64,000 nucleotides of DNA from Verrucomicrobiia bacterium (GTDB lineage: Bacteria > Verrucomicrobiota > Verrucomicrobiia > Verrucomicrobiales > Akkermansiaceae), in contig CANHQJ010000013.1 in NCBI GenBank assembly GCA_947462875.1, positions 1 through 64,000 on the forward strand, given 5' to 3'. Of the stretch, positions 35,916 to 38,198 are shown piece after piece. The number at the start of each line of letters is the position of its first letter. The first letter of the stretch is position 1. The notes beneath the pieces are model-generated. The model was not told the DNA's origin, made no database searches, and saw only the letters and a list, made by a program, of their open reading frames with translations. A program made the position numbers and the translations under genes.

Positions 35916-35957
35916 CACCCGTTGTCATCTCCCCTGGCAGCGGGTGTTTATTTTTTC
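35916..35957 (+). terminator. Terminator after the CBS-protein gene
   Basis: CACCCGTTG (35916-35924) pairs with CAGCGGGTG (one G-U) and is followed by TTTATTTTTT. It overlaps the 3' end of the convergent fusion gene. Confidence 0.65.
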
Positions 35958-37063
35958 CTCGTGAGCGACTTCGCCAGCGCGGGTAGTTCGGAAAACTCCG
36001 TGATGAAATGCGCGGCCTTTTGTTTGACGGCATTGCGGGCGATGACGCCGCCAAAGCCGATGAAGAGATCGACTTCGCTGGAAGACTCGAGATCGGAGAT
36101 GCCATCGCCGACCATGATCGTGGTTTTGGGCAGCATCGCGTTTTTCCACTCGCGGATGATTTGCGGTTTGCCGCCGTTGCGGGTGGTGGGGTAGTCCGCA
36201 CCGTAGCCGGTGTAGTTGCCATCGGCATCGTGATGGATGGGCACGGCTTCGACGAAGGAAATGCCGAGGTCGCGCGCCAGTGGTTCGATCAGTGGGGCGA
36301 ATCCGCCGCTGAGAATGACGATGGTCCAGTCTTCGTCGCGCAAGGCCTGGAAGGTCTCGCGCACGCCGGGGACGACGGTTTCCCTGTAGCGCCGGGCGAC
36401 GGCATCGCAGGTGGCTTTGTCAGGGCGCAGGATGTCCATGCGGCGGGGGAAGACTTCGTGCAAGGGAATCTCTCCATTCATCGCGGCATTGGTCAGGGCG
36501 ACGATTTCCCGGAAAACGGCATCGCCGCGTTCGCGCGCGAGTTCATCAATGCCCTCGATGCTGGACAGCGTGGAGTCACAATCGAAGAACGCGATTTTCC
36601 CGCGCTTGCGGGTGGGTGGTTCGATAAAGACTTCGGTATCGAGCGGGGTGAGGTCGAAGAGTTCGACGATGTCGATGTTCGACAAACGGATGCAACCATG
36701 GCTGGCGGGGACGCCGATGAGTTCCTCCTGATTGGTGCCGTGGATGTAGATGCAGCGCTCCAACGTATTTTTGTTTTGCGCGTCCATGCCATCGAGCCGC
36801 AGGATGCGCGAAGTGATGAGATCGCCCTCCGTGGTATCGCCGGGCGTCCAGAGTCCCACGGGTTCGCGCTTCTGAAAAACCGTGCCGAGCGGTTGTTCGT
36901 AGCCGATTTTTTCGCAGATGCGGAATTGTCCCGTGGGCGTGCGATAGCTGTCTTTCGTGAAGCCCACGCCCTTCGCTCCCGAGGAAATGGGATATTCGCG
37001 GATCACTTCATCGCCATCGGACAAAGTGAGCCATTGGTCATCGATCGAGATGTGAATGTTCAT
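35948..37063 (-). CDS. L,D-transpeptidase (YkuD) domain fused to a SerB-like HAD phosphatase
   Basis: 371 aa. Residues 1-150: YkuD fold with the catalytic signature H108...S121-H-G-C124-I-R-L-S-N. Residues 155-371: HAD-IB phosphatase with D161-C-D163-S-T (motif I), S-G-G-F (motif II), and M-V-G-D-G-I-S-D-L-E (motif III), as in phosphoserine phosphatase. There is no signal peptide, although YkuD enzymes act on peptidoglycan outside the membrane, while SerB is cytoplasmic. It lies 21 bp downstream of a class V aminotransferase, which favours a serine-pathway role for the HAD half. A sequencing fusion is unlikely because one frame reads through both domains with an 8-residue linker (P-P-T-R-K-R-G-K). 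Confidence 0.85.
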   Translation of the reverse strand: MNIHISIDDQWLTLSDGDEVIREYPISSGAKGVGFTKDSYRTPTGQFRICEKIGYEQPLGTVFQKREPVGLWTPGDTTEGDLITSRILRLDGMDAQNKNTLERCIYIHGTNQEELIGVPASHGCIRLSNIDIVELFDLTPLDTEVFIEPPTRKRGKIAFFDCDSTLSSIEGIDELARERGDAVFREIVALTNAAMNGEIPLHEVFPRRMDILRPDKATCDAVARRYRETVVPGVRETFQALRDEDWTIVILSGGFAPLIEPLARDLGISFVEAVPIHHDADGNYTGYGADYPTTRNGGKPQIIREWKNAMLPKTTIMVGDGISDLESSSEVDLFIGFGGVIARNAVKQKAAHFITEFSELPALAKSLTRKK

Positions 37064-37084
37064 TTGTCAGATCGAAAAAATCCG

Positions 37085-38155
37085 TTAGCCTAACACATCG
37101 TCCATGGCGGCGATCAGTTCGTTCATGGTGGCGGAGGTTTCGTTGCCCATGTTCGAGATGCGGAAGGTGATGCCTTTGATTTTGCCGTAGCCGCCGTTGA
37201 TGAGGAAGTTGTGCTTGGTCTTGAGATTCTTGATGAACGCGGATTGATCGAAGCCCTCGGGCGTGTGGAAGCAGCTGAGTGACACGGAACGGAAGCCTTC
37301 CGGGGCGAAGTGCTGGAAGCCGTGGCGCGCGGCCCAGTCGTGGATGAGCCGGTTGTTTTCGCGATGGCGGGCAAAGCGGTTTTCCAGGCCCTCGGCGGCG
37401 ATGGTCTCGAGGATGTGTTGCAGGCCGAAAATCAGCGAGATCGCCGGAGTGGACGGCGTGTTGTTCGCGGCGGCGTTCTTTTCGAATTCGACAAAGTCAA
37501 AGTAGTAGCCGCGGTCTTTGCTGGCCTTCGAGCGCTCCAGCGCCGCTTCGGAAATGGCGAAAACCGTTAGGCCGGGAGGCAGCGCCATGGCTTTCTGCAC
37601 ACCGGCGAGCAGGACATCGATGCCGAGCTCGTCCATGGCATGCGGCACGGCGGAAAAGGAGGAAACGGTATCGACGATGAGCAGCACGTCAGGGAACGAT
37701 TTCACGACGGCGGCAATCGCGGCGAGATCGCTCATCACGCCGGTGGAGGTCTCGTTATGGATGAAGGTGACGGTATCAAATCCTCCCTCGGCGAGTTTCG
37801 TGCGCACTTGGGCAGGGTCGATCGGTTGACCCCATTCGTATTGGAGTTTCTCGACTTCTTTGCCGCATTTTTTGGCGACATCGAACCACTTGTCGGAAAA
37901 CGCGCCATTGCAGAGGGTGAGGACTTTTTTCTGCGTGAGATTGCGCAGTGCGGCTTCCATCACGCCCCAGGCGGAGGAAGTGGAGAGAAAGACCGGGCGC
38001 TTGGTGCCGGCGAGTTGTTGCAGGCCGGGCTGGGTGGAGGCGTAGAGTGCCTCGAACTCGGAACCGCGGTGGCCGATCATGGGACGCGACATCGCCGCGT
38101 AGGTGGCATGAGAAACGTCGATCGGACCAGGGATGAAAAGTTTGGGTGTAGGCAT
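37085..38155 (-). CDS. Class V aminotransferase (phosphoserine or serine-glyoxylate type)
   Basis: 356 aa from the ATG at 38155. PLP fold type I: K-L-F-I-P-G-P-I at the start, G-H-R-G-S-E-F, L-S-T-S-S-A-W-G-V-M-E-A, V-D-T-V-S-S-F, and the PLP Lys in A-G-V-Q-K-A-M-A-L-P-P-G. Sequence style is that of alanine-glyoxylate/serine-pyruvate enzymes. Some bacteria and archaea use this group as the phosphoserine aminotransferase in place of classical SerC. The next gene carries a SerB-like phosphatase, so a 3-phosphohydroxypyruvate to phosphoserine step is likely (inference). Confidence 0.85.
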   Translation of the reverse strand: MPTPKLFIPGPIDVSHATYAAMSRPMIGHRGSEFEALYASTQPGLQQLAGTKRPVFLSTSSAWGVMEAALRNLTQKKVLTLCNGAFSDKWFDVAKKCGKEVEKLQYEWGQPIDPAQVRTKLAEGGFDTVTFIHNETSTGVMSDLAAIAAVVKSFPDVLLIVDTVSSFSAVPHAMDELGIDVLLAGVQKAMALPPGLTVFAISEAALERSKASKDRGYYFDFVEFEKNAAANNTPSTPAISLIFGLQHILETIAAEGLENRFARHRENNRLIHDWAARHGFQHFAPEGFRSVSLSCFHTPEGFDQSAFIKNLKTKHNFLINGGYGKIKGITFRISNMGNETSATMNELIAAMDDVLG

Positions 38156-38169
38156 AGGAGTGGACGCCC

Positions 38170-38198
38170 AGTGTGCGAGGGGAAGGCTCACTTGTCAA
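38170..38198 (-). promoter_or_regulatory. Promoter of the aminotransferase-fusion operon
   Basis: Minus strand: a perfect TTGACA (38193-38198), 17-nt spacer, CACACT (38170-38175), 14 nt to the ATG at 38155. Confidence 0.55.

Follow-up and report, generated by a model that had tools for sequence, protein, structure and literature searches.

The fused gene and its two domains

The window, i.e., the whole stretch of 64,000 nucleotides analysed here (Verrucomicrobiia bacterium, family Akkermansiaceae; assembly GCA_947462875.1, contig CANHQJ010000013.1), carries on its minus strand a gene (35948..37063) that begins with ATG and encodes a 371-aa protein composed of a YkuD half and a phosphoserine-phosphatase-like HAD half, and full-length fused homologues exist. 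The YkuD domain (residues 3-147; 36623..37057) matches Pfam PF03734 (7.8e-19; 69.1 bits vs. a cut-off of 23.4) and, structurally, 4a1i; its catalytic histidine and S-x-G-C motif, which mark members of the YkuD superfamily, are found at H108 (36740-36742) and S121-H-G-C124 (36692..36703, containing the catalytic cysteine). Beyond a short linker (residues 148-155; 36599..36622) lies the HAD-IB phosphoserine-phosphatase-like domain (residues 156-371; 35951..36598), with matches to TIGR01488 (75 bits, above the cut-off of 45), TIGR00338, and the structure 6q6j, and with a Pfam HAD match at residues 158-326 (50 bits vs. a cut-off of 27). This domain contains the nucleophile motif D161-C-D163 (36575..36583), motif II (S252-G-G-F255; 36299..36310), and motif IV (G319-D-G-I-S-D324; 36092..36109), all on the minus strand. 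An earlier note, made from the letters of the sequence, had proposed two domains in a single frame with catalytic signatures in both, and the 371-aa open reading frame, its Pfam YkuD and HAD matches, and the presence of every motif agree with that description. Upstream on the same strand, with 21 bp between its stop and the start of the fused gene, is a class V aminotransferase gene (37085..38191), a SerC3-like candidate phosphoserine aminotransferase according to its profiles, its relatives, and a published SerC3 prediction. Antisense to the fused gene there is a 361-aa open frame (window 36008-37093, plus strand) that is probably a shadow of codon bias.

Both halves of the fused protein are under constraint. 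The alignment comprised 44 intact proteins from 46 fused loci, leaving out G088, which is cut by a contig end, and treating the degenerate G053 apart. H108, G109, S121, G123, and C124 of the YkuD half are invariant (44/44), as are D161, D163, E170, M195, G197, R208, S252-F255, K299, D320, and D324 of the HAD half; motif IV is also invariant at G319, G321, and S323. The second position of the cysteine motif is variable, H122 being histidine in 20/44 intact homologues. Nei-Gojobori estimates gave dN lower than dS in each of the eight within-genus pairs, for the YkuD as well as the HAD half, with several dS values close to saturation or past it. The linker is free of indels in 44/44 aligned rows, and its length was considered as a mark of fixed domain geometry; this idea was set aside because indels within the aligned residues 5-359 are confined to residues 74-79, and therefore, in a protein that is nearly indel-free throughout, a constant linker length is not special.

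A structure predicted from an alignment of 39 fused sequences was of high confidence (mean pLDDT 94.9, pTM 0.91) and was compared with known structures using Foldseek and VIA-align, the VIA-align rows being mostly from the HAD half. Residues 154-362 superimpose on human phosphoserine phosphatase (PSPH, 6q6j) with Z 29.1 and an rmsd of 1.7 A across 205 residues (34% identity), and residues 1-149 on B. subtilis YkuD (4a1i) with Z 17.9 and an rmsd of 1.4 A across 109 residues. Sequence comparison leads to the same two proteins, with 2.6e-31 for the C-terminal half and human phosphoserine phosphatase, and 3.5e-7 for the N-terminal half and B. subtilis YkuD.

A single origin of the fusion in three genera

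Among 145 genomes of the family Akkermansiaceae, HAD-bearing loci were classed in 104. The fused state was found in 46 genomes belonging to three genera (g1: 10, g7: 18, g13: 18), 30 genomes carry YkuD as an unfused gene upstream of the HAD gene on the same strand, and in 28 the HAD gene stands without a YkuD gene in the upstream flank examined, a flank that spans only 225 to 1,005 bp at four of these "unlinked" loci. The gap between the unfused neighbours ranges from -26 to 43 bp in 29/30 pairs, and in the remaining pair (G009) a metallophosphatase-like gene lies in between. Two g13 genomes (G013 and G104) have neither half of the fused protein and one weaker YkuD match each. G140 was considered as a YkuD-only genome that might have lost the HAD gene, but it was not counted, given that its YkuD matches are at contig ends.

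The earlier note had named an assembly error, or the lack of any fused homologue, as what would undo its reading. Recurrence in 46/145 family genomes refutes the view that a sequencing or assembly error joined two genes. The length of the linker, conserved across fused rows, argues in the same direction, as do ten named MAG records (L009-L018) that carry the fusion, nine of them whole or almost whole and one truncated at a contig end; several of these coincide with genomes of the family sample, providing names for, rather than additions to, the 46. We regard the probability of such an artefact as negligible.

The same note had suggested looking for conservation across Verrucomicrobiota, and this was not seen: in a search of 387 sampled genomes of the phylum (E 1e-15), all 11 full-length matches among the strongest ones listed belonged to the family Akkermansiaceae. 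A pattern scan of one genome per species (84,980 species) returned 15 loci, and those with both halves bear the names Akkermansiaceae, Verrucomicrobiaceae, Verrucomicrobiae, or Akkermansia.

A tree of 106 HAD domains, built without G053 and including three rows from other families, requires one change to the fused state (support 99/96), and one change was also obtained in 99% of 200 bootstrap trees, showing that the fusion, spread over three genera of one Verrucomicrobiota family, has a single origin. Every intact HAD sequence of the fused clade (45) is fused, and no fission is seen on the tree. The adjacent and unlinked states require five and six changes, respectively. Because unlinked genes, from g2, g5, and other families, make up the rows nearest to the fused clade, the tree leaves the linkage before fusion unsettled. 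Nonetheless, the same gene order occurs unfused in 30 related genomes, and fusions do arise by read-through in this gene row, as indicated by an apparent triple fusion of YkuD, HAD, and a helix-turn-helix-like 105-aa neighbour (518 aa, recognised by eye) in the g13 genomes G143 (L106:1491-3047) and G036 (L110:993-2549). Thus, the best reading is that the fused gene derived from two neighbouring, co-directional genes.

One fused gene has decayed. G053 (L074:5177-6313) lacks the D161-position residue, the SGG motif, and the GDGxSD motif of the HAD half, which has stayed on as a domain open over some 220 residues, and its YkuD half retains H108 and C124 with S121 replaced by G. The genome of G053 encodes SerA and has no SerB-like match.

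The HAD half as a candidate phosphoserine phosphatase

Profile scores place the HAD half close to, and outside, the SerB equivalog family: TIGR00338 gave 116-118 bits vs. a cut-off of 144.15, a threshold passed in 0/145 family genomes. Besides the TIGR01488 match, the positions aligned to PSPH are invariant in 44/44 fused proteins, and the human enzyme is identical at those aligned to E170, M195, G197, R208, S252, K299, D320, and D324 (N196 is G in human PSPH); we take these residues to be catalytic or phosphoserine-contacting. The best PDB matches of the C-terminal half, by sequence as well as by fold, are phosphoserine phosphatases. Leaving aside a partial match of 34 bits within a frame of 921 aa, the fused protein is the only SerB-like protein of its genome at E 0.01 (118 bits).

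The other steps of serine synthesis were also searched for in the source genome. SerA is present (608 bits). A search for canonical SerC (TIGR01364) scored one candidate and found none, but it also missed the window aminotransferase (52 bits on this model), so the absence of canonical SerC is weak, even though a genuine SerC would be expected to reach a far higher score. The aminotransferase itself exceeds no NCBIfam equivalog cut-off (best: BhcA, 216 of 650 bits), and it has relatives in 131/145 family genomes (E 1e-40). From genome context in gut bacteria, a published study predicted SerC3, a phosphoserine aminotransferase of PF00266, in serA operons and named Akkermansia (PMC9026213). Two g3 genomes have SerA in one row with a DUF1015 gene and an aminotransferase of 37% identity, and we infer that g3 corresponds to Akkermansia and that the window aminotransferase is SerC3. 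The earlier note's phosphoserine-making aminotransferase stands as a SerC-like neighbour in the window, but its placement is confined to genus g1, where it lies upstream of the fused gene in 7/10 genomes (once with about 0.7 kb between them) and where one of the other three genomes is cut by a contig end.

Within the g3 rows (G047, L167:4197-8334; G118, L171:3891-8126), the DUF1015 gene (PF06245) sits between the SerC3-like aminotransferase and SerA, and these genomes have no SerB-like HAD match. This gene could account for the missing phosphoserine phosphatase activity, or it may encode a different serine enzyme.

Loss of SerA had been expected where the HAD gene is absent. However, no SerB-like match was found at E 1e-10 in 42/145 family genomes, and SerA is present in 37 of these at E 1e-100 (g3 SerA scores below the model cut-off). 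The family must therefore contain further phosphoserine phosphatases. Co-occurrence with SerA is no proof of role and was dropped as support.

A different substrate for the HAD half would be a sugar phosphate of cell-wall recycling. MupP, the MurNAc-6-phosphate phosphatase, is a known recycling factor, and a MupP-like HAD half would turn the whole protein into one recycling enzyme, giving the fusion a simple metabolic sense. We consider this very improbable in view of the conserved PSPH-aligned residues, the best-matching folds, which are phosphoserine phosphatases with Z up to 29, a genome without another SerB, and the adjoining SerC3-like gene; in addition, none of the 13 matched NCBIfam families is named MupP, a point that counts only if that library includes a MupP model. 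Phosphoserine phosphatase remains our preferred assignment for the HAD half.

A predicted cytosolic YkuD and its relation to known systems

YkuD domains of the transpeptidase type work outside the cytoplasm, and the earlier note had remarked that no export signal is visible here. An in-frame TGA (37067..37069, minus strand) two codons 5' of the ATG bears this out: it excludes an in-frame N-terminal extension and hence a signal peptide, and the YkuD domain begins at residue 3. On these sequence features the window protein is predicted to be cytosolic, as ElsL is known to be. Three relatives (G033, G042, and G023) have an equally tight upstream stop, and 34/45 fused loci have no alternative in-frame upstream start. 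The other 11, all in g7 and none in g1 or g13, have one or more such starts in an open upstream frame that overlies a ketoacyl-synthase-like gene, and for this reason the sequence rules out export of the window protein and its near relatives rather than of every homologue.

A second YkuD gene of the source genome (L002, 1417-2040; 207 aa, 42% identity across the domain) is signal-like at its N-terminus and contains the motif SYGC together with a lipobox-like cysteine. Lipoprotein-like YkuD genes with a signal-like N-terminal stretch ending in a lipobox-like cysteine, and with SYGC, were found in 15/15 genomes including the source (L002, L192-L205); these were hand-picked from weaker YkuD matches and their signals were read by eye. 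SYGC is fixed in these paralogues (15/15 genomes), whereas the cytosolic YkuDs vary at that position.

A published YkuD enzyme of the cytosol is ElsL of A. baumannii, an L,D-carboxypeptidase of cell-wall recycling, which depends on the cysteine of its YkuD domain, acts on M4 while leaving M5 uncleaved, and feeds tripeptide to Mpl (PMC8649774). The same work reports ElsL orthologues in all orders of Verrucomicrobia from a list limited to proteins of 105-200 aa, a survey that would have dropped the 371-aa fusion because it excluded anything above 200 aa (PMC8649774). The ElsL profile (NF040925) assigns the fused protein 102 bits against a cut-off of 270. We rejected this score as proof of role, given that the exported, lipoprotein-like paralogue scores as high (109 bits); since the profile does not discriminate, an ElsL role rests on location and context. 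Regarding context, Mpl is present in the source genome (432 bits vs. a cut-off of 389), and LdcA (PF02016) was found in 3/145 family genomes only (G010, G082, and G130, all with the fused gene), that is, neither in the source genome nor in the 141 others. An AmpG-family importer was not found in the source genome in a search that scored one candidate and whose control was positive in 5/14 genomes. Tripeptides and glycine-tetrapeptides are among the major muropeptides of Verrucomicrobium spinosum (PMC12283558), which fits the occurrence of L,D-enzymes in the phylum and says nothing about the fused protein.

Outside g1, the linked genes lie in another row. A bioB or ketoacyl-synthase-like gene lies upstream of YkuD at 64/66 linked loci (36/36 fused, 28/30 neighbours). 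All 36 fused genes of g7 and g13 follow the ketoacyl-synthase-like gene, most flanks being too short to reach bioB. Among the neighbour pairs, bioB is upstream in g9 (17/17), g11 (4/4), g6 (3/3), g8 (1/1), g10 (3/4), and g15 (0/1), and in g10 pairs the ketoacyl-synthase-like gene stands between bioB and YkuD. Neither gene was found near YkuD at 19 other loci (17 from other families, two from g3) with flanks of up to about 6 kb, less at contig ends. An initial guess from gene sizes, that murU and amgK precede the split pairs, was discarded when family scans gave BioB, a ketoacyl-synthase-like gene, and an unmatched third gene.

With such neighbours and no AmpG found, the YkuD half could be cytosolic and yet act as an acyl transferase or hydrolase on a substrate other than a recycled peptide, for example in the biotin gene row. 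The bioB link is, however, unseen at the 19 other YkuD loci, and the fused gene of g1 stands outside that row in the loci seen while both halves are kept, and we hold this reading to be distinctly improbable.

The gene between bioB and YkuD in some genera is a FabF-like ketoacyl-synthase relative (L016:4826-5986, L073:3845-4918) that is possibly an unusual pimelate or biotin gene, and it overlaps the YkuD start by 4 bp in many fused genomes. Conserved 5' of bioB is a protein of 223 aa (L072:6962-7633) that starts with what resembles a signal peptide and matches no Pfam family.

We regard it as more likely than not that the fused gene encodes a cytosolic protein with two enzymes that work independently, one an L,D-carboxypeptidase resembling ElsL and the other a phosphoserine phosphatase, brought together from adjacent genes. 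The cysteine of the YkuD half would attack the mDAP-D-Ala bond of imported cell-wall tetrapeptides, with water in place of the acceptor, and the resulting tripeptide would pass to Mpl for reuse. The HAD half would convert L-phosphoserine to L-serine, the final step after SerA and the SerC3-like aminotransferase. The two reactions are most likely independent, and the shared chain would bring co-expression and perhaps stability.

The main challenge to independence is that the halves are functionally coupled, with the serine or phosphoserine level setting the rate of peptide trimming, or with the HAD fold acting as a scaffold for YkuD. All 45 intact HADs of the clade are fused without fission, the two-domain model is confident (pTM 0.91), and in G053 the HAD half stays on without catalytic residues next to a YkuD half that keeps its His and Cys. 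Against coupling, the HAD gene is unfused in 58/104 genomes (28 of them without YkuD in the flank examined), the 105-aa neighbour is also fused in two genomes, so read-through fusions happen, the constancy of the linker is not special, and G053 is one genome. These points make coupling unlikely. Many SerB proteins carry ACT regulatory domains where YkuD sits here, and a bolder version is that a peptide-trimming YkuD replaced the ACT domain, so that serine status and peptidoglycan recycling are cross-read in one folded unit and YkuD needs the HAD fold even without HAD chemistry, as in G053; we offer this as speculation with a slim chance of being correct. Beyond the shared polypeptide, nothing supports the earlier note's idea of tying serine supply to changes in the cell wall: the aminotransferase is upstream in g1 only, and the HAD half of G053 is dead.

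The fused protein supplies this branch of Verrucomicrobiota with a candidate for each of two functions: a cytosolic L,D-carboxypeptidase, where searches found no LdcA in 142/145 family genomes, and the final step of serine synthesis. The unlinked, neighbouring, fused, and decayed states provide a clean case for asking whether a fusion across unrelated pathways carries function.

Our literature search found no paper on a pairing of YkuD or ElsL with a phosphoserine phosphatase or SerB, and the protein is a new architecture made from known parts. Compared to SerB and PSPH (TIGR00338; human 6hyy, M. jannaschii 1f5s), the HAD half shares the fold and the presumed catalytic and phosphoserine-contacting residues, whereas the fused protein has an N-terminal YkuD domain and, at 116 bits, falls under the cut-off of 144. 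B. subtilis YkuD and other L,D-transpeptidases share the catalytic fold and the His/Ser-x-Gly-Cys site with the N-terminal half; unlike them, it matches no wall-binding domain, lacks export, and would presumably take water, instead of a peptide, as its acceptor. ElsL of A. baumannii (NF040925; PMC8649774) shares the following with the fused protein: a YkuD without an export signal, a separate exported YkuD, no LdcA found, and Mpl present. The fused protein differs from ElsL in its attachment to a phosphoserine-phosphatase-like domain, its 102 of 270 bits, the lack of an AmpG match, and an activity that is predicted. LdtAb and ElsL coexist in Acinetobacter (PMC8649774), a division of labour similar to that between the lipoprotein-like YkuD and the fused, putatively cytosolic YkuD described here.
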